Assembly: GCF_002979455.1 (NCBI RefSeq)
Contig: NZ_PCOU01000009.1
Coordinates: 1-64,000 of the forward strand
Reading direction: 5' to 3'
DNA from: Chryseobacterium sp. MYb7
GTDB lineage: Bacteria > Bacteroidota > Bacteroidia > Flavobacteriales > Weeksellaceae
DNA: 64,000 nucleotides
Position 1 is the stretch's first letter, and each line of letters starts with the position of its first letter. The position numbers and the translations under genes were made by a program. A model generated the notes under the pieces. It searched no databases. It was given only the letters and a program-made list of their open reading frames with translations, and was not told the origin of the DNA. Below are positions 51,407-60,498 of this stretch, piece after piece.

Positions 51407-52500
51407 AGATTGCCTTTGATGCAAAACGATTTTTCCACAATACATCCGGTCTGGGAAATTACTCGAGAGATCTTGTAAGAATCCTTTCAGAATATGAACC
51501 GGACAATGAATATCTGCTGCTCAGCAAAAACAAATCCGAGCGGGGAAAAGAGCTTCTGGAACGTCCTAATGTTCACTTTATTCCAACGTCAAAAGGAAAC
51601 CTTTCCCGCCAGTTGAAAATGGGTAAAGATGCCCAACAACAAGGAGCCGGTATTTTCCATGGCTTATCCGGCGAACTTCCTTTAAAATGGAATCCAAAAC
51701 CTATTAAAAAGGTCGTTACCATTCATGATCTGATCTTTGTAAGGTTTCCGCAGTATTATTCTTTTTTTGACAGGAAAATCCATTTCTGGAAATTTAAAAA
51801 AGCGGCTGATTCAGCGCACAAAATAATTGCTATTTCAGAACAGACCAAAAGAGATATTATCCAGTATTTAAAAGTTTCTGAGAATAAAATTGAAGTTATT
51901 TATCAGGGATGTCATCACGCTTTTAAAGAACAGCAGTCTCCGGAAATGATGCAGACAGTAAAAGAGAAATTTAAGCTTCCGGAAAGATTTATACTGAATG
52001 TTGGTACTATTGAAGACCGCAAAAATCTATTGAATGTTGTAAAGGCGATCAGCGATACAGAAATTCCGCTCGTTGTAGTGGGAAGAAAAACCAAATATTA
52101 CCAGAAAATAGAAAGTTTCCTGAAAAAAAACAAAATGGAAAAGCAGGTGCTTTTCCTGGAAGGTGTTTCTATGGATGAGCTGGCTTGTCTCTATAAACTT
52201 GCAGATATTTTTGTTTATCCAAGTTTCTTTGAAGGCTTCGGAATTCCTGTGATTGAGGCACTTTTCTCCAAAACTGTAGTAGTTACAAGCAACACCAGCT
52301 GTCTGCCGGAAGCGGGAGGAAAAGACTCTGTGTATGTGAATCCTGACGATGATCTTGATATCCGGGCAAAATTAAAATTTCTCTGGGAAAATGAATCCGA
52401 GAGAAAACGCCGTGAGGAAAAGGGTTTCGAGTTTGTTCAGAAGTTTAATGACGAACCTATTGCAAAGGAATTGATAAAGTTCTATCAAAAAATTATCTGA
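51403..52500 (+). CDS. Glycosyltransferase family 4 (GT-B)
   Basis: The 365-aa protein has the GT-B layout. The N-terminal acceptor domain begins MKIAFDAKRFFHNTSGLGNY (glycine loop), and the C-terminal nucleotide-sugar domain has ERFILNVGTIEDRKNLLNVV and the EX7E-type motif in PSFFEGFGIPVIEALFSKTV. It is similar to mannosyltransferase-type GT4 enzymes. It ends the overlapping glycan operon, and the his promoter begins seven bases after its stop codon. Confidence 0.9.
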   Translation: MKIAFDAKRFFHNTSGLGNYSRDLVRILSEYEPDNEYLLLSKNKSERGKELLERPNVHFIPTSKGNLSRQLKMGKDAQQQGAGIFHGLSGELPLKWNPKPIKKVVTIHDLIFVRFPQYYSFFDRKIHFWKFKKAADSAHKIIAISEQTKRDIIQYLKVSENKIEVIYQGCHHAFKEQQSPEMMQTVKEKFKLPERFILNVGTIEDRKNLLNVVKAISDTEIPLVVVGRKTKYYQKIESFLKKNKMEKQVLFLEGVSMDELACLYKLADIFVYPSFFEGFGIPVIEALFSKTVVVTSNTSCLPEAGGKDSVYVNPDDDLDIRAKLKFLWENESERKRREEKGFEFVQKFNDEPIAKELIKFYQKII

Positions 52501-52506
52501 AAAAAG

Positions 52507-52536
52507 TTTGCATTTTAAAAATAAATCCTACATTTG
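52507..52536 (+). promoter_or_regulatory. Promoter of the histidine operon
   Basis: TTTG at 52507-52510 and TACATTTG at 52529-52536 are 18 bases apart, an excellent Bacteroidota sigma-A promoter. Transcription should begin about 52541-52545, a few bases before the leader peptide ATG at 52554. Confidence 0.85.
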
Positions 52537-52553
52537 CATCATAATTCAATACA

Positions 52554-52604
52554 ATGAAACCAATATTTTTAGCATTACATCATTATCACCATCATCTCTG
52601 CTAG
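52554..52604 (+). CDS. hisL: Histidine operon leader peptide
   Basis: A 16-codon frame MKPIFLALHHYHHHLC ends at TAG 52602-52604. Five of six consecutive codons (52578-52595) are histidine. This is the signature of attenuation by ribosome stalling when charged tRNA-His is scarce. It lies between a strong promoter and a terminator hairpin, about 144 bases before hisG. Confidence 0.92.
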   Translation: MKPIFLALHHYHHHLC

Positions 52605-52679
52605 ACGGAATTGATTGATATAAGTATGTGCTAAAATCAAAAATAATTAAAACCGTCTGAGTAAATAGGCGGTTTTTTT
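52603..52679 (+). promoter_or_regulatory. Attenuator (terminator/antiterminator) of the histidine operon
   Basis: The terminator is AAAACCGTC (52649-52657) pairing with GGCGGTTTT (52668-52676), followed by T residues. AGACGG at 52603-52608, overlapping the leader stop codon, is exactly complementary to CCGTCT (52653-52658), the left arm of the terminator. A ribosome stalled at the His codons would leave AGACGG free to form the antiterminator, and a ribosome reaching the stop codon would cover it. Confidence 0.85.
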
Positions 52680-52747
52680 GTTTCCTGAATTCTCTTCAGA
52701 AATTTTAATAGATCAGTTTTTATTTGCTCGGACCCAAAAAAGGCAAA

Positions 52748-53605
52748 ATGAGTAAATTAAAAATTGCAATCCAAAAAAGCGGCCGGCTTTACGAAGAATC
52801 TCTTCAGCTTCTCAAAGACTGCGGAATCTTTGTCAACAACGGTAAAGACCAACTCAAAGTTTCAGTAGATAACTTTCCGATGGAAATCATGTACCTCCGG
52901 AACTCAGACATCCCTCAATACCTGGAAGATGGAGTAGTTGACGTGGCCATTCTTGGTGAAAATCTCCTGATTGAAAAAGGTAAAAATATCAAGACTGTTC
53001 AGAAGCTTGGCTTTTCAAAATGCCGTGTTTCATTGGCTGTTCCTAAAGAAGTAGAGACCGATGAAATTTCTTATTTCCAGGGCAAAAAGATTGCCACTTC
53101 TTACCCAAATACCCTTAAAAACTTTTTAGAGAAAGAAGGAATTCTTTCAGACATTCACGTGATTTCCGGTTCTGTAGAAATCGCTCCAAATATTGGTCTT
53201 GCAGACGGAATATGTGATATTGTCAGTTCCGGAAGTACCTTATTCAAAAATGGATTAAGAGAAACAGTCACTTTACTAAAATCGGAAGCTGTTTTGGCTC
53301 AAACACCTCAATTATCGGCTGAAAAAGAAGCCATTCTTGAAAAATTTGTATTCAGAATCAAGTCTGTTTTAAAAGCAAAAAATTCAAAATACATTCTGAT
53401 GAATGTTCCCAATGAAAAAATCCAGAAAGTTGCGGGTGTTCTTCCTGTATTGAAAAGTCCCACAGTCATTCCGCTCGCAGAAGAAGGCTGGAGCAGTATT
53501 CATTCTGTTATTGATGAAGAGCGTTTCTGGGATGTTATTGACGAACTCAAAGAAAATGGAGCACAGGATATTTTAATCATTCCAATTGATAAAATGGTTA
53601 TTTAG
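52748..53605 (+). CDS. hisG: ATP phosphoribosyltransferase, long form
   Basis: The 285-aa enzyme condenses ATP with PRPP in the first step of histidine synthesis. It begins KLKIAIQKSGRLYEESLQLL, has the ligand loop GADGICDIVSSGST-like segment (LADGICDIVSSGSTLFKNGL), and has a C-terminal ACT-like regulatory domain (VPNEKIQKVAGVLPVLKSPT), marking the long, histidine-inhibited HisG that does not need HisZ. ATG 52748 is chosen; an in-frame TTG 24 bases earlier is unlikely. First structural gene after the attenuator. Confidence 0.96.
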   Translation: MSKLKIAIQKSGRLYEESLQLLKDCGIFVNNGKDQLKVSVDNFPMEIMYLRNSDIPQYLEDGVVDVAILGENLLIEKGKNIKTVQKLGFSKCRVSLAVPKEVETDEISYFQGKKIATSYPNTLKNFLEKEGILSDIHVISGSVEIAPNIGLADGICDIVSSGSTLFKNGLRETVTLLKSEAVLAQTPQLSAEKEAILEKFVFRIKSVLKAKNSKYILMNVPNEKIQKVAGVLPVLKSPTVIPLAEEGWSSIHSVIDEERFWDVIDELKENGAQDILIIPIDKMVI

Positions 53606-53631
53606 AAAAATAATAATAGCGAATGTTGGTT

Positions 53632-53808
53632 AACGCAAAGGTGCAATAAAAATGAATTTGATACTGCTTTAAGGCGCAAAGATTTTATCTGCGATAAAAT
53701 TGAATGCCGTTTTAAATCACAAAACTATACTAACGCACTTGCTGAAAATCTTAGATTTTCTTGCGCCTTAAAAAAGTAAAGATTAAAAAAACTTGCGCCT
53801 TTGCGTTT
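53632..53808. repeat. Dispersed repeat family A (copy in hisG-hisD spacer)
   Basis: A 177-bp element has inverted ends, AACGCAAAGG and CCTTTGCGTT, and inner arms AAGGCGCAAAGATTTTATCT and CTTGCTGAAAATCTTAGATT. It closely matches 55215-55397 and, in decayed form, 1026-1130. It is non-coding and can fold into a long imperfect hairpin in the his mRNA. Confidence 0.85.
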
Positions 53809-53818
53809 ATAAAAAATG

Positions 53819-53905
53819 AATTATTAAGGTCTCAAGCAGCTGAATAAAATAGCTTCAGCTATGATCTTAATAAAACTTAACAACTTAAAAAGAATCTTAA
53901 TGGTT
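53819..53905. repeat. Repeat family B (short copy)
   Basis: Directly abuts the family A copy. It starts AATTATTAAGG and ends CTTAATGGTT, the family B end also seen at 56736-56745. It is about 87 bp, shorter than the other two copies, so probably internally deleted. It leaves about 20 bases before the hisD start. Confidence 0.7.
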
Positions 53906-53926
53906 CAAAAAAATTAAGAAAGTACA

Positions 53927-55201
53927 ATGAAAATATACAGATATCCCACAAAAGACACTTGGAAAGACTTGGTTAAACGCCCGGTTTTGGAGCAGAAAGA
54001 AATTTCAGGTCTGATTACAGAAATATTTGCAGAAGTTGAAAAAAATGGAGATCAAGCTTTAATAGAATTCAATAAAAAGTTTGATAAAGCAGAAACGAAG
54101 AGCATTAAAGTTTCTGATGCTGAAATTCAAGAGGCTGAAAAGCAGATTAATGATGACTTGAGAGAAGCTATTCAACAGGCTAAAGAAAATATATCAATAT
54201 TTCACGCCTCTCAAAAGACGGAGATTCAGAAGATTGAAACCACAAAAGGGGTTGTTTGCTGGCGTGAAAATCGCGCTGTAGAGAGAGTTGGGATCTATAT
54301 TCCGGGAGGAACTGCTCCTTTATTTTCTACAGTATTAATGCTTGCAGTTCCTGCAAATCTGGCGGGATGTAAAGAAATCGTACTGTGTACACCACCAGAC
54401 AAAAATGGAAATATCAATCCCGCCATTCTTTATGCCGCCAAACTTTGTGGAGTTTCGAAAATCTTTAAGACAGGTGGGGCGCAGGCTGTTGCAGCGATGA
54501 CTTTTGGAACAGAAAGCATTCCTGCAGTGAACAAAATTTTCGGTCCTGGAAATCAGTTTGTAGTAGCAGGAAAAGAATACGCCCAACGTTACGGAGTGGC
54601 TATTGATATGCCTGCCGGACCGAGTGAAGTTCTCGTCATAGCAGATGAACAAGCCGTTCCTGATTTCTGCGCTGCAGATCTTCTTTCACAGGCAGAACAC
54701 GGAAGTGACAGTCAGGTTGTTTTTATCACGACAGACCTTAAAGTGTTTGAAGAGACAATAGAGGCTGTTGGGCAACAAATCAAGGATTTACCAAGAAATG
54801 AATTTGCAGGTCAGGCATTAGAAAACAGTTCTTTTATTTTAGTCAATTCTTTGGAAGAAGCCCTTGAGTTCAGTAATCTTTATGCTCCGGAGCACCTTAT
54901 TCTGGCTATCAATGATTTTGAAAAATATATTCCGAAGGTTCAGAATGCAGGTTCGGTTTTTCTAGGAAACTATTCTTGTGAAAGTGCGGGAGATTATGCC
55001 AGCGGAACCAATCACACGCTTCCTACCAATGCGTATGCAAAGAACTACAGTGGAGTTTCGTTAGATAGTTTCGTAAAGAAAATAACATTCCAGCACCTTT
55101 CAAAAGAAGGGCTTCAGAATTTAGGAAAAACAATAGAGCTTATGGCAGAAGCGGAAGGGCTGTTTGCTCACAAAAATGCAGTGTCGATAAGATTGAAATA
55201 A
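53927..55201 (+). CDS. hisD: Histidinol dehydrogenase
   Basis: The 424-aa zinc enzyme performs the last two oxidations from histidinol to histidine with NAD+. Family signatures are plain: RVGIYIPGGTAPLFSTVLML, FGPGNQFVVAGKEYAQ, AIDMPAGPSEVLVIADE and LLSQAEHGSDSQVVFIT, with the C-terminal SGTNHTLPTNAYAKNYSGVS. It is separated from hisG by 320 bp filled with two repeat elements. Confidence 0.96.
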   Translation: MKIYRYPTKDTWKDLVKRPVLEQKEISGLITEIFAEVEKNGDQALIEFNKKFDKAETKSIKVSDAEIQEAEKQINDDLREAIQQAKENISIFHASQKTEIQKIETTKGVVCWRENRAVERVGIYIPGGTAPLFSTVLMLAVPANLAGCKEIVLCTPPDKNGNINPAILYAAKLCGVSKIFKTGGAQAVAAMTFGTESIPAVNKIFGPGNQFVVAGKEYAQRYGVAIDMPAGPSEVLVIADEQAVPDFCAADLLSQAEHGSDSQVVFITTDLKVFEETIEAVGQQIKDLPRNEFAGQALENSSFILVNSLEEALEFSNLYAPEHLILAINDFEKYIPKVQNAGSVFLGNYSCESAGDYASGTNHTLPTNAYAKNYSGVSLDSFVKKITFQHLSKEGLQNLGKTIELMAEAEGLFAHKNAVSIRLK

Positions 55202-55214
55202 TTAATTGTTGGAA

Positions 55215-55397
55215 AACGCAAAGACGCAAGAGAATTATAATGAGAAACATTTTTAAGACGCAAGGATTTTATCTCCGATAAAATTGAATAATGTATATAA
55301 AAACACAAAACAAAGCGCATACCCTTGCTGAAAATCTTCGATTTTCTTGCGCCTTAGAAAATTGTTACAGAATTAAAAGACTTTGCGCCCTTGCGTT
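55215..55397. repeat. Dispersed repeat family A (copy in hisD-hisC spacer)
   Basis: A 183-bp element with ends AACGCAAAGACGC and GCGCCCTTGCGTT and the shared inner words GATTTTATCTCCGATAAAAT and CTTGCTGAAAATCTTCGATT. It is the closest relative of 53632-53808. Confidence 0.85.
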
Positions 55398-55411
55398 TAT
55401 CAAAAAAAATG

Positions 55412-55540
55412 AACCATTAAGAAAATGAAGTATGTAAGCAAAGTTAAGATTCAAATACATTTGAATTCAGCTCATTGCTTAATAAAGATCGGAAGATATT
55501 TTCTTCATTATTCTTAATAACTTAATCCAGCTTAACGGTT
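55412..55540. repeat. Repeat family B (copy in hisD-hisC spacer)
   Basis: A 129-bp element with AACCATTAAG at the left and CTTAACGGTT at the right (inverted with one mismatch). It contains an inner palindrome-like TTCAAATACATTTGAA. It directly follows a family A copy, the same order as between hisG and hisD. Confidence 0.8.
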
Positions 55541-55584
55541 TAAAAACGGTTTTATAATAATTTTTTTTTAAGAAAGTCAATACA

Positions 55585-56610
55585 ATGAAAAATAATAGTA
55601 TCAAAACACTCGTAAGAGAAAATATATTACAATTACAGCCCTATATCAGTTTCAGGGATCACAATGAATTTAATGCTCCCGTTATGCTGGATGCCAATGA
55701 AAGTCCATTCGGGGAATGCAACCGCTATCCGGATTCTACCCAGAAAAGGCTTAAAAGCAAGCTTGCGGGGCTCAAAAATGTTTTACCCTCACAGATTGCC
55801 ATAGGAAACGGAAGCGACGAGCTGATAGACCTTATCATTAAAATCTTCTGTGAGCCTAAAAAAGATGCCATTCTGATGATGAATCCATCATTTGCGATGT
55901 ATGGTTTCTATGCAGCAATCAACGAGAATAAAGTTTTGAAATTGGATTTGAATGAAAACTTTGAAATCGTAAAGAATGATTTTTTAAAAGCGACAGCAGA
56001 TCCTTCACTGAAGATTTTCTTTTTATGCTCACCCAATAATCCTACAGGAAACAGTGTAGATGATATTGAATTTTATCTTCAGAATTTCAACGGAATTGTA
56101 GTGGTAGATGAAGCTTATATTGAATTTTCCGGAAAAAAATCAAGTCTGGAGCTTTTGGACAAATATTCGAACCTGATTGTATTGCAAACCTTTTCTAAAG
56201 CGTGGGGAATTGCCGGGGCAAGAGTAGGCATGGCTTATGCATCCGAAGAGATTATCAGCCTTATCAATACTGTAAAAGCACCTTACAATGTGAATGTTCT
56301 GAGCCAGGAACTGATTTTAAAGACGTTAGAGGAAGAAAACAGGCTGCAGGAAAATGTAAGCCGTATCTTAGAAGAGAGAGCATGGCTAAAAGAGCAGTTT
56401 GAAGGAATTGCATGCATTAAGAAAGTATTTTCAACAGATGCGAATTTCTTCCTGATCAGAATGGAAAATGTTGATAACGTATATTCAAAAATGTTGGAAG
56501 AGGAAATTTTAACCAGCAGAAGAGACCCAGCCATTCCTGGATGTATCAGGATTAATGTAGGAAACCGTACAGAAAATGAAAAACTAATTAACCTTTTACA
56601 AGAAATATAA
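55585..56610 (+). CDS. hisC: Histidinol-phosphate aminotransferase
   Basis: The 341-aa class I/II PLP enzyme converts imidazole-acetol phosphate to histidinol phosphate. Visible features are VMLDANESPFGECNRYPDST, IAIGNGSDELIDLIIKIFC, the PLP contact FFLCSPNNPTGNSVDDIEFY, the catalytic lysine in LQTFSKAWGIAGARVGMAYA, and RRDPAIPGCIRINVG. The gene sits in the his operon after a repeat-filled 383-bp spacer. Confidence 0.96.
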   Translation: MKNNSIKTLVRENILQLQPYISFRDHNEFNAPVMLDANESPFGECNRYPDSTQKRLKSKLAGLKNVLPSQIAIGNGSDELIDLIIKIFCEPKKDAILMMNPSFAMYGFYAAINENKVLKLDLNENFEIVKNDFLKATADPSLKIFFLCSPNNPTGNSVDDIEFYLQNFNGIVVVDEAYIEFSGKKSSLELLDKYSNLIVLQTFSKAWGIAGARVGMAYASEEIISLINTVKAPYNVNVLSQELILKTLEEENRLQENVSRILEERAWLKEQFEGIACIKKVFSTDANFFLIRMENVDNVYSKMLEEEILTSRRDPAIPGCIRINVGNRTENEKLINLLQEI

Positions 56611-56615
56611 ATATA

Positions 56616-56745
56616 AACCATTAAGAAAGATGAAGAGAATAAGAAAAATTAAGATTCATCAAAGATGAATAAGTAAGAATATAGCTCAATTAATCTTTAG
56701 CTATGCCCTTAATAATTCTTAATCACTTAAAAAAGCTTAATGGTT
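56616..56745. repeat. Repeat family B (copy in hisC-hisB spacer)
   Basis: A 130-bp element with perfect 10-bp inverted ends, AACCATTAAG at 56616-56625 and CTTAATGGTT at 56736-56745. It starts six bases after the hisC stop and ends 23 bases before hisB. No family A copy accompanies it here. Confidence 0.82.
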
Positions 56746-56768
56746 AAAAACAATTTTATAAAAAACAT

Positions 56769-57863
56769 ATGAAAAAAGTATTATTTATAGACCGTGACGG
56801 AACACTCATCATTGAACCGCCTACAGATTTTCAGGTAGATTCTCTGGAAAAGCTGGAATTTTATCCGGGAGTCTTTCAGAACCTGGCAAAAATTGTCAGT
56901 GAATTGGATTATGAACTGGTAATGGTAACCAATCAGGATGGATTGGGAACTGAAAGTTTTCCTGAAGAAGATTTCATAAAACCACACGAAAAAATGCTGC
57001 AGGCATTTGAAAATGAAGGAATAATTTTTAGTGATATTTTAATTGATAAAAGCTTTGAATCTGAAAACCTTCCTACTAGAAAACCAGGAATCGGAATGCT
57101 GAGTAAATACATTTATGGAAATTATGATCTTGAAAATTCTTATGTAATTGGTGATCGAAGTACAGATGTTCAACTTGCTAAAAATCTGAAATCTAAAGCT
57201 ATTTATCTTAATCAAAACTTAAATAGTGATGCTGAGTTGTCTACAACAAATTGGTCAGAGATTTATCAGTTCTTAAAATCCGGAATGCGAAAGGCTAAAG
57301 TCTCTCGCAAAACCAATGAAACAGATATCGAAATTGAAGTTAATCTTGATGGAAACGGAAAGGCAGATATTTCAACAGGGCTTCACTTTTTTGACCACAT
57401 GCTGGACCAGATTGCGAGACACGGAAATATGGATTTAACCATCAAGGTAAAAGGCGATCTTGCTGTAGATGAGCACCACACCATTGAAGATACAGGAATT
57501 GTTCTGGGAGAAGCTATTTTAAAAGCTTTAGGAAAGAAAAAAGGGATTGAAAGATATGGTTTCCTGCTTCCGATGGACGACTGTCTTTCTCAAGTGGCTA
57601 TCGATTTCGGCGGCAGACCTTGGCTGGTTTGGGATACCCCGTTTAAGAGAGAAAAGATTGGAGATGTACCTACTGAAATGTTCTTTCACTTCTTTAAATC
57701 GTTTACAGATGCCTCAAAATCCAATCTGAACATCAAAGCAGAAGGAGATAATGAGCACCACAAAATTGAATCCATCTTTAAGGCTTTTGCAAAAGCCGTT
57801 AAAATGGCTGTGAACCAATCAGATAGTAATTACAGTTTACCTTCTACAAAAGGAAGTTTATAA
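56769..57863 (+). CDS. hisB: Bifunctional histidinol-phosphatase / imidazoleglycerol-phosphate dehydratase
   Basis: The 364-aa fusion has an N-terminal HAD-type phosphatase (about 1-165) with nucleophile/acid Asp pair FIDRDGTL and [12 protein letters not shown]. The C-terminal dehydratase (about 175-364) has manganese-binding histidines in [34 protein letters not shown] and [18 protein letters not shown]. It performs the sixth and eighth steps of the pathway. The stop codon is two bases before hisH. Confidence 0.97.
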
Positions 57864-57865
57864 AT

Positions 57866-58444
57866 ATGATTGCCATAATAAAATACAACGGAGGAAATGT
57901 AAATTCCGTCCAGAATGCTCTCAACAGACTGAATGTAGATTCTATAATCACCGATGATCCCGGGCAGATCTTAAAAGCTGACAAAGTGATCTTTCCAGGG
58001 GTGGGAGAAGCTTCATCCACCATGAAGCTGTTGAAGGAAAGAGAGCTTGACCTTCTAATTCCAAGTCTTAAACAGCCGGTTCTGGGAATATGTCTGGGCA
58101 TGCAGCTGATGTGTAAAGGAAATGAAGAAGGAGATACTGAAGGAATGGGAATTTTTGATATTAATGTTAGAAAATTTCCAGCAAAGGATATTGTTCCGCA
58201 TATGGGATGGAATACACTTTCAGGGCAGACTTCATCACTGTTTTCAGGAATTGAAAAGAGCAGTGATGTTTATTTTGTTCACAGCTATTATTGTGAGCTT
58301 TCAGACTTTACAACTTCTGTTTGTGATTATATCCTGCCGTTTAGCGCCTCATTGCAGAAAGACAATTTTTATGCAGTACAGTTTCACCCTGAAAAATCAG
58401 GAATTGTGGGAAATCAGATCGTTAAGAACTTTATAAATTTATAA
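57866..58444 (+). CDS. hisH: Imidazole glycerol phosphate synthase, glutaminase subunit
   Basis: The 192-aa class I glutamine amidotransferase has nucleophile Cys in [11 protein letters not shown] and the His-Glu pair in VQFHPEKSG. It supplies ammonia to HisF. The start is two bases after hisB and its stop overlaps the hisA start as TAATG. Confidence 0.97.
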
Positions 58445-59169
58445 TGATGAAAATAATTCCGGCTATTGATATTATTGACGGCAAATGTGTCCGTTTGTCG
58501 AAAGGAGATTATAACACAAAGAAAATATACAATGAAGACCCTGTAGAAGTGGCGAAAGAATTTGAGAGTTTTGGCATTCAGTTTCTTCACCTGGTGGATC
58601 TTGATGGAGCAAAATCAAAACATATTGTCAATCAAAAGGTTCTTGAAAATATTGCGGGCTCTACTTCATTACATATTGATTTTGGAGGAGGCTTAAAAAC
58701 TCAGGAAGATATTGAAACCGCTTTTAATTCCGGAGCAAAACAGATTACTTTAGGAAGTATTGCGGTTCAAAATCCTGAATTCTGCTATGAAATGATCCAA
58801 AAATATGGTGCTGAGAAAATTATTCTCGGGGCTGATTGTGACAACAGAAAAATTAAAACTTCCGGTTGGCTTGAAGAAAGTGATAATGACATTATTGATT
58901 TTATCCTTCAATATCAGGAAAAAGGGATCCAATCCACAATATGTACTGATATTGCAAAAGATGGAATGCTGGAAGGTCCTTCAACAGGGCTTTATATTGA
59001 AATCTTATATAAAACATCCGTTCAGTTGGTGGCAAGCGGAGGAATTTCCGGGATTGCTGATGTGTATAAAATGAAAGATATCGGCTGCGCAGGGACAATC
59101 ATCGGAAAAGCAATTTATGAAGGAAAAATAAGCTTACAACAACTTCAAAATTTTATTGAAAATGCTTAA
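58444..59169 (+). CDS. hisA: ProFAR isomerase
   Basis: The 241-aa TIM-barrel enzyme isomerises ProFAR to PRFAR. It has the N-terminal catalytic Asp ([20 protein letters not shown]), phosphate loops [19 protein letters not shown] and [15 protein letters not shown], and the second catalytic Asp in [15 protein letters not shown]. Two adjacent ATGs (58444, 58447) are possible starts. Its last eight bases overlap hisF. Confidence 0.96.
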
Positions 59170-59914
59170 AAAAAGAATTATTCCATGTTTGGATATTAAA
59201 GATGGAGCTACGGTGAAAGGAATCAATTTTGAAGACCTTAAAAATGCAGGAGATCCTGTAGAGCTTGCCAAAAAATATGAGCAGGAAGGAGCAGATGAAC
59301 TTGTTTTCCTTGATATTACGGCAACTATTGAAAACAGGAAGACTTTTGTAGAATTGGTAAAAGAGATTGCCAAAGAGCTCAGCATCCCTTTTACAGTGGG
59401 AGGTGGAATTTCGTCTGTGGAAGATGTTAGAAAGCTTTTGGAAGCAGGTGCAGACAAGATCAGTATCAATTCCTCAGCGGTAAAAAATCCGGCACTTATT
59501 TCTGATTTAGCCAAAGAATTTGGAAGCCAATGCGTTGTGGTTGCTATTGATACAAGACAAGTGGGCGATAAAGATTTAGTTCACATCAAAGGGGGAAGAG
59601 AAGCTACCGAACTTTCTACGGTAGAATGGGCAAAAAAAGCTGAATCTCTTGGAGCAGGAGAAATTCTGCTGACTTCTATGGATGGAGATGGCACAAAAAA
59701 CGGCTTTGATCTTCGTATTACAAAACTGGTTTCAGATAATATAAGCATTCCTGTGATTGCTTCCGGAGGTGCCGGTAATGTGGATGACTTTGTTAAAGTA
59801 TTTAATGAGACAAAAGCAACGGGAGGATTGGCAGCCAGTATTTTCCATTTTAATGAAATAGGAATTCAGGATTTAAAACAACAGTTAAAAACTCAAAAAA
59901 TAGAAGTACGATGA
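59162..59914 (+). CDS. hisF: Imidazole glycerol phosphate synthase, cyclase subunit
   Basis: The 250-aa TIM barrel starts [20 protein letters not shown] with catalytic Asp11. It has [20 protein letters not shown], the second catalytic Asp in [17 protein letters not shown], and [18 protein letters not shown]. It closes the imidazole ring and releases AICAR, using HisH ammonia. ATG 59162 overlaps the end of hisA; an in-frame TTG two codons earlier is less likely. It overlaps hisIE by four bases. Confidence 0.96.
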
Positions 59915-60498
59915 AAATAGATTTTAATAAAGATAATGGGCTTGTTCCGGTAATCATTCAGGACAGCAGAACATTGCAGGTTTTGATGCTGGGCTACATG
60001 AATGAAGAAGCTTTTGAAAAAACAAAAGAAGAAGGAATTGTTACCTTTTTCAGCCGTTCCAAAAACAGGCTCTGGACAAAAGGAGAAGAATCCGGTAATT
60101 TTTTAACGGTAAAAAGTATTGACATTGACTGTGATCAGGATACCATTTTAATTAAAGCCGTTCCAAAGAATGTGGTTTGCCACACAGGAAGTTTCAGTTG
60201 TTTCGGAGAAAAGGATGCCAAAGGATTTCTGTATGAACTGGAAGATAAAATATCACAACGAATAGATACTAAAGCTGAAGGTTCCTATACTTATTCTCTC
60301 TACCAGAGAGGAATTAATAAAATGGCTCAAAAAGTAGGAGAAGAAGCCGTAGAACTCGTTATTGAAGCTAAAGATAATAACGAAGAGCTCTTTAAAAATG
60401 AAGCTGCAGATCTGCTGTATCACTTCCTGATTTTATTGAAAGCCAAAGGATTTTCGATGGAAGAAATTGAAGAAATTCTTAAAAACAGAGATAAATAA
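59911..60498 (+). CDS. hisIE: Bifunctional phosphoribosyl-AMP cyclohydrolase / phosphoribosyl-ATP diphosphatase
   Basis: The 195-aa fusion has an N-terminal cyclohydrolase (about 1-105) with [20 protein letters not shown], the zinc/magnesium site [13 protein letters not shown] and CHTGSFSCF. The C-terminal pyrophosphohydrolase (about 110-195) has [14 protein letters not shown] and [18 protein letters not shown]. It catalyses the second and third steps. It is the last gene of the his operon, with a terminator at its stop codon. Confidence 0.96.

Follow-up and report, generated by a model that had tools for sequence, protein, structure and literature searches.

The his operon and its leader

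The window, which is the whole stretch of 64,000 nucleotides that was analysed, carries a Chryseobacterium his operon on its forward strand. The first gene, hisG, encodes ATP phosphoribosyltransferase with the C-terminal domain (52748-53605; TIGR00070 and TIGR03455, both over cut-off), and its product shares 98% identity with the HisG of two Chryseobacterium records. The remaining genes, hisD, hisC, hisB, hisH, hisA, hisF and hisIE, were placed at 53927-60498 by open reading frames and profile matches. The hisG ATG lies at 52748, while the mechanically called reading frame begins at a TTG farther upstream. The gaps between hisG and hisD (53606-53926) and between hisD and hisC (55202-55584) hold copies of a repeat of about 200 nt, GCGCAAAGATTTTATCTGCGATAAAAT ... 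CTTGCGCCTTTGCG, the pieces of which are 74-86% alike, and a related shorter repeat precedes hisB.

A first-pass annotation had described a Bacteroidota promoter before hisG, a 16-residue leader with five His in six codons, and a terminator hairpin with an antiterminator arm overlapping the leader stop. Each of these could be read at the positions it had given. The promoter (52507-52536, forward strand) consists of TTTG at 52507-52510, an 18-nt spacer and TACATTTG at 52529-52536, and was named using what we take to be the consensus letters of the Bacteroidota promoter. Promoters of F. johnsoniae are described as having a -7 element plus a weaker -33 element. The promoter is kept in the part of the genus alignment that was inspected, and TAnnTTTG occurs at most 60 nt 5' of the leader ATG in 182 of the 258 leaders in the comparative set defined below.

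The leader peptide gene (52554-52604, forward strand) has 16 codons, with ATG at 52554, the product MKPIFLALHHYHHHLC and the stop codon TAG at 52602-52604. Codons 9-14 (52578-52595) read His-His-Tyr-His-His-His, and the regulatory run is thus made of codons for the product of the his operon, as in an attenuator. When the region 5' of hisG was dinucleotide-shuffled 3000 times, an ATG reading frame with five His in seven codons never arose. The fold of the 140-nt leader had a z-score of -4.45, and 0 of 200 shuffles were equally stable. In the minimum free energy fold, a predicted anti-antiterminator hairpin (52567-52636) pairs UUUUAGCAUUACAU with AUGUGCUAAAA and encloses the His codons together with arm 2 of the antiterminator. 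Among 65 genus members, AGCA occurs with TGCT in 20 and AACA with TGTT in 33, with no mixed pairs; in the remaining 12 the sequence is different or one side was not located by pattern. The putative hairpin over the His codons is therefore supported by a compensatory change, AGCA/TGCT versus AACA/TGTT.

An intrinsic terminator (52649-52679), placed as in an attenuator between the leader reading frame and hisG, has an 11-bp stem and a 6-nt loop (stem-loop 52649-52676, then a T run; -12.1 kcal/mol). Terminator-like sites in the region overall showed no excess (5 versus a shuffle mean of 6.6). Arm 2, the 5' side of the antiterminator (UAGACGG, 52602-52608), overlaps the leader stop codon and can form a 7-bp run with CCGUCUG; within it, AGACGG lies at 52603-52608 and the complementary CCGTCT at 52653-52658. 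The description of the antiterminator as a 6-bp pairing only was understated. When arm 2 is free and arm 4 has not yet been made, two inner helices of 5 bp each lengthen AGACGG:CCGUCU into a hairpin (52600-52662) of -12.7 kcal/mol versus -12.1 kcal/mol for the terminator.

By coordinates, a ribosome at the stop codon covers arm 2 and one halted at the His codons leaves it uncovered, with the footprint assumed to extend from -12 to +15 of the P-site codon. When the window leader was folded with the ribosome at the stop, the probability of the antiterminator pairing (2:3) at the U tract was 0 and that of the terminator 0.94. With His9, His10, His12 or His13 in the A site, the 2:3 probability at the U tract was 0.02, 0.37, 0.94 and 0.48, respectively, and before arm 4 is made it was at least 0.98 with His9, His10 or His13 in the A site. 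Because these values vary with the stalled codon, the equilibrium picture depends on the stall position, and timing matters.

Conservation of the attenuator

In order to follow the leader in relatives, hisG was searched in 59 genomes of the genus, 120 of the family and 148 of the order. Matches were obtained in 58, 73 and 78 of them (the sets overlap), and 187 upstream regions were extracted. A His leader was scored where an ATG reading frame of at most 60 amino acids held at least three His in seven codons, a rule satisfied by 57 of 3740 shuffles. Leaders were found 5' of hisG in 165 of the 187 regions, or 165 of 168 when family f16 is set aside. By group, they occurred in 65/65 regions of the genus, 61/62 of the rest of the family and 39/41 of other families (f2, f3, f4, f7, f9, f13, f14 and f15); one region, L129, was unparsed owing to a wrong frame and was scored as a miss. 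A second set from family f3 comprised 130 genomes, 107 with hisG, and yielded 101 new regions. Leader and terminator were present in 93 of these; six had no leader by the rule (one is a 210-nt stub and three are leader-like with two His) and two were unparsed. The 165 order leaders and the 93 from f3 make up the set of 258.

Under loose search criteria, a hairpin with a T run was present in all 258 leaders, although a few are poor (e.g. L148). Arm 2 was sought in the 45 nt 3' of the His run, and its best candidate started at most 12 nt past the first base of the stop codon in 258 of 258. The 2:3 run had a median of 8 bp and reached at least 6 bp in 232. The first-pass annotation had suggested looking in relatives for conserved His runs and for covarying AGACGG/CCGTCT pairs, and both were found. 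All 65 genus regions have the run, and in each of them arms 2 and 3 can pair over 6 bp or more, through AGACGG or AGGCGG with CCGTCT in 64 and through CGGACGG in one. Across 129 genera, the 2:3 score of own sequences was 17.5, compared with a mean of 15.5 and a maximum of 16.1 for swapped ones (0/500). By these comparisons, the predicted antiterminator is mutually exclusive with the terminator and covaries.

Family f16 had a His leader in 0 of 19 regions although hisG is kept (L126-L128, L130, L132-L136, L138, L142-L147, L151, L186 and L187). The 0.6-Mb genomes of this family look like those of reduced endosymbionts, and his regulation was apparently lost from them while the gene was retained. 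From other orders, 30 hisG loci were fetched and 26 parsed, and a His leader was present in 21 of the 26. Among these leaders, 18 of 21 terminators end 16-33 nt 5' of hisG; the hairpin of L208 looks misplaced. Many of the other-order his terminators (L189-L218) have in common GGCTTACC...GGTAAGCC or close variants, and by their sequence these attenuators are of a different design.

An element between the terminator and hisG

The first-pass annotation had ended the unit at 52679. Two further segments appear to take part, namely element 5 (TATTTGCTCGGAC, 52721-52733), which it had not noticed, and the start of hisG. Element 5 can form 13 bp, two of them G.U, with element 3 (GTCTGAGTAAATA, 52655-52667), which comprises the upper half of the terminator 5' arm and the loop. 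It can also form 9 bp with the hisG start, element 6 (ATGAGTAAAT, 52748-52757), which has GAGTAAAT in common with element 3. Extended by a U-run/A-run helix, the 5:6 pairing gives a predicted hairpin that encloses the hisG start (52711-52771, forward strand; -14.9 kcal/mol). Shuffles matched the window pairings in 2 of 5000 cases for 3:5 and 124 of 5000 for 5:6.

Elements 3 and 5 pair in a run of 9 bp or more in 64 of 65 genus members, 194 of 258 leaders and 76 of 129 genera; such a run was absent in the other 53 genera, and a run of 9 bp occurred in 0 of 21 other-order his leaders. In swap tests with one member per genus (36 genera, 200 draws), the own score for 3:5 was 19.96 versus a swapped maximum of 15.65, and the independent f3 set gave 20.0 versus a maximum of 16.0 (93 leaders, 0/1000). 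Compared with shuffles of the same region, the pairing had p < 0.01 in 19 of 36 genera. When genera were ranked one by one, 37 of 129 had an own arm that outscored 95% or more of the foreign arms and 30 of 129 had an own region that did so, with about 6 expected; this test is blunted because many genera share states.

The aligned cells of 3:5 (1617 cells, 147 distinct combinations) comprised 1369 Watson-Crick, 143 G.U, 13 A.C and 92 other pairs, counted over combinations in which 7 or more of the 11 pairs of 3:5 are Watson-Crick, and with the register set on Watson-Crick pairs only. The large excess of G.U over A.C argues for pairing in transcribed RNA rather than for a DNA operator. Cells and genera are related by a tree, and the statistics treat them as independent. 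The three segments also change together across genera, in a comparison that left out the 16 of 165 leaders whose terminator has no anchor motif. Elements 3/5/6 read GAGTAAA/TTTACTC/GAGTAAA in most genera, GAGTACA/TGTACTC/GAGTACA in some of g35, GAGCAAA or GAACAAA/TTTGTTC/GAACAAA in g7, g30 and part of g26, GAGTTTT/GAACTC/GAGTTC in g11, and GAGTATA/TATACTC/GAGTATT in L164. In a group of f3 genera, GAGACAATC is found with GATTGTTTC, and the start pairing is shifted to the adjacent ACTCAT:ATGAGT. Taken on these comparisons, the case for the RNA pairing 3:5 is strong.

The 5:6 start pairing is more weakly supported. In the f3 set its own score was 13.5 versus a swapped mean of 12.2 and maximum of 12.9 (0/1000), and across 36 genera it was 14.46 (lowest draw 13.85) versus a swapped maximum of 13.75. 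Against same-region shuffles, p was below 0.05 in 17 of 36 genera. Its 1176 cells comprised 902 Watson-Crick, 74 G.U, 30 A.C and 170 other pairs, an asymmetry that partly reflects the one in 3:5, given the likeness of elements 3 and 6. Where elements 3 and 6 differ, element 5 fits only element 3 in 153 cases, only element 6 in 32, both in 38 and neither in 13. Element 5 thus mostly follows element 3, so that 3:5 is the main pairing and 5:6 comes second. An ATGAG start of hisG goes with a long 3:5 run, as it occurs in 57 of the 73 genera whose run is 9 bp or longer versus 6 of the 33 whose run is shorter than 8 (Fisher 7e-9, with the relatedness of genera ignored). This comparison covers the genera that have the anchor and a run other than 8. 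The resemblance of the loop to the start was slightly above that in swaps (3.58 vs 3.35; 3 of 5000 as high). In L255, L276 and L304, a 12-bp 3:5 pairing is kept while hisG starts with ATGAC and has no 5:6 pairing at that place, so 3:5 may have another role.

Folding was used to examine the predicted effect of element 5 on the hisG start in the 71 genera whose 3:5 score is 20 or more. In 60 of these, the element stops 12-23 nt short of the AUG. Blocking it in silico raised start accessibility from 0.46 to 0.60, compared with 0.49 for control windows (Wilcoxon 2e-6). Of the 69 genera that have a control window, 45 responded more strongly to the block than to any control; about 15 genera showed no rise. 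The models thus predict a hairpin that hides the hisG start (-14.9 kcal/mol in the window) and is opened by blocking element 5.

A response to the leader ribosome was not seen in equilibrium folding of the same 71 genera, where start accessibility was 0.464 with the ribosome at the stop versus 0.473 with it stalled (p = 0.26), and 3:5 before the start is made was lower when stalled (0.295 vs 0.358; p = 0.004). The same calculation hardly opens the terminator on stalling (0.935 to 0.909); it is therefore a weak test, yet it gives no support for a lock, and the kinetic order probably decides. In folds of the window, 3:5 dominated in most ribosome states before the hisG start is transcribed and beat the terminator at that stage with the ribosome at the stop (p ~0.99). 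Once the start and the A-run are made, 5:6 won in every ribosome state tried (p ~0.92).

Proposed control of hisG and alternative readings

By comparison with its relatives, it is near certain that the leader is a histidine attenuator. That part of the first-pass reading, a ribosome-mediated attenuator, stands, and what has to be given up is its 6-bp limit and its end at 52679. A translational lock on hisG is more likely than not. Our preferred reading, which we consider somewhat more probable than not, joins the two, in that flavobacteria would have supplemented the histidine attenuator with a second lock, one that acts on the translation of hisG.

We infer the ribosome behavior, the order of events and the effect on translation as follows. 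The ribosome would translate the 16-codon leader and so sense the supply of His-tRNA. With ample His-tRNA, it would reach the stop codon and cover arm 2 (52602-52608), the terminator pairing 3:4 would form, and the RNA would end at about 52679. With scarce His-tRNA, it would stall in the HHYHHH run, arm 2 would pair with arm 3, the terminator would be blocked, and the his operon would be made. Two partners would compete for element 5 in the read-through RNA, since pairing with the hisG start (5:6) would close that start and pairing with the terminator arm and loop (3:5) would leave it open. As long as arm 2 keeps arm 3 paired, the loop GAGUAAAU would be single-stranded and would trap the emerging element 5, taking it during the 14 nt before the hisG start emerges and leaving hisG translatable. 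If the terminator hairpin stands and has been bypassed, the loop would be constrained and element 5 would close the hisG start. Since element 5 can pair alternatively with the loop or with the hisG start, the terminator loop would be a decoy copy of that start.

A wider form of the proposal seems to us evenly balanced between true and false. It holds that one stalling event both passes RNA polymerase and, via the decoy that traps the anti-start element, turns hisG translation on, that finished mRNAs keep sensing histidine, and that the arrangement is widespread in bacteria that lack Shine-Dalgarno (SD) sequences. If the proposal is true, it shows how SD-less bacteria can equip an attenuator with translational control, namely by concealing the very start codon. 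Regulation would then also influence which codons hisG has at positions 2-3, and transcripts that have passed the terminator might remain responsive to histidine.

Other explanations of element 5 were weighed against this one. An ordinary leader-peptide attenuator could act alone, with element 5 as a by-product or relic that does nothing for hisG translation. Such an attenuator needs no more than the classical parts, all of which are present, and the absence of the 9-bp 3:5 run from 53 of the 129 order genera and from all 21 other-order leaders would fit it, as would the equilibrium folds in which the hisG start is unresponsive to stalling. A relic would decay, however, and the covariation of 3:5 (0 of 1000 swaps) with its 143 G.U versus 13 A.C pairs counts against one; we hold this explanation to be unlikely. 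Action in trans, which strikes us as rather improbable, would have the terminated leader RNA, abundant in plentiful histidine, bind element 5 of the hisG mRNA, a short way 5' of the AUG, through its terminator loop and block 30S loading. Such a role would agree with the greater conservation of 3:5 than of 5:6 and with its persistence in genera without 5:6. Trans-acting attenuator RNAs are known, and the hisG leader RNA might resemble rnTrpL of Sinorhizobium, reportedly an attenuated leader RNA that acts in trans. The fit of element 5 to the hisG start and the ATGAG association would nevertheless be left unexplained, and a loop of 6-9 nt would have to open its own stem in order to form 12-13 bp.

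The pairing could also act in cis and independently of 5:6, if 3:5 took the terminator hairpin apart in read-through mRNA and the resulting helix just 5' of hisG altered 30S binding or decay directly. That 3:5 outcompetes the terminator before the start is made favors this in the window, though the 71-genus mean is only 0.36, and the 5:6 swap tests and the ATGAG association speak for a part played by the start itself; we regard it as quite improbable. Very improbable is an operator at the DNA level, in which a protein binds the GAGTAAAT/ATTTACTC repeats. Three related copies do lie around the hisG start, but the pairing partner includes the terminator arm, and the strong asymmetry of G.U over A.C led us to reject the operator.

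Relation to known leaders and to other amino-acid operons

The enterobacterial his attenuator has a His-run peptide, a terminator, an antiterminator and a hairpin over the regulatory codons. The Chryseobacterium leader is like it in its short His-run peptide, its terminator before hisG, its exclusive antiterminator and its hairpin over the His codons. It differs in that arm 2 overlaps the leader stop, the promoter is of the Bacteroidota type, and element 5 lies 3' of the terminator with the hisG start involved. In the B. subtilis trp leader, TRAP likewise combines transcription attenuation with a hairpin over the start of the first gene, but there the signal is sensed by a protein and no leader-peptide ribosome takes part. 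The Rfam family His_leader, presumably RF00514, was not among the eight matches at E up to 1 for positions 51500-53500. No family reached its gathering score on the hisG leader, and membership in an Rfam leader family was rejected because all matches, among them some to leaders for Phe, Thr and Leu, fell below threshold. The covarying element is a ready model for a curated flavobacterial RNA family.

In Flavobacterium psychrophilum, a structured 5' element upstream of hisG has been described that is transcribed in vivo, has no Rfam match and is present in other Flavobacteriaceae genera, and the same study suggested leader-peptide attenuation for amino-acid operons (PMC9723704). The attenuator as such is therefore not new; the element concerns the same gene in related bacteria. 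The closest likeness to the proposed double control is with vmlR of B. subtilis, for which it has been proposed that stalling in an upstream reading frame leads to an antiterminator and that pairing in the read-through RNA disrupts a hairpin hiding the downstream SD (PMC9226507). vmlR senses antibiotics and hides an SD (PMC9226507), whereas the hisG leader, in a phylum that lacks SD sequences, would sense an amino acid and pair the start codon and first codons; a further difference is that covariation here extends across many genera. F. johnsoniae is described as having no SD sequences and as tuning initiation by mRNA structure near the start (PMC6847099), and leader-peptide-like short reading frames are reported in 5' UTRs of B. 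thetaiotaomicron (PMC7366714). A literature search that covered few subscription journals returned no start-codon lock in an amino-acid leader.

The regions upstream of trpE, pheA and ilvD were drawn from 60 genomes of the order each, with 26, 25 and 16 loci, respectively, inspected of the 30 fetched for each gene, and were judged by eye. Leaders with runs of W, F/Y and I/L/V had no convincing pairing of the 3:5 type in these sets. Among the rows compared with 100 shuffles, two fell below 5 in 100, ilvD of L397 (10-nt run, 3) and pheA of L355 (8-nt run, 4), and neither pairing adjoins a convincing leader or terminator. The Chryseobacterium pheA loci had no convincing Phe/Tyr leader. Several families have Phe/Tyr-rich leaders with a terminator mostly close before pheA (L356, L362, L363, L365-L369, L372-L378 and L380). 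In the same Chryseobacterium genome, the region upstream of trpE (L344) carries the Trp leader MNNNIWWWLSNSSSGLEVLSCC and a terminator 34 nt before trpE, with no element 5 seen. Ile/Val/Leu-rich leaders and terminators precede ilvD in families f9 and f3 (L381-L383, L391 and L395).
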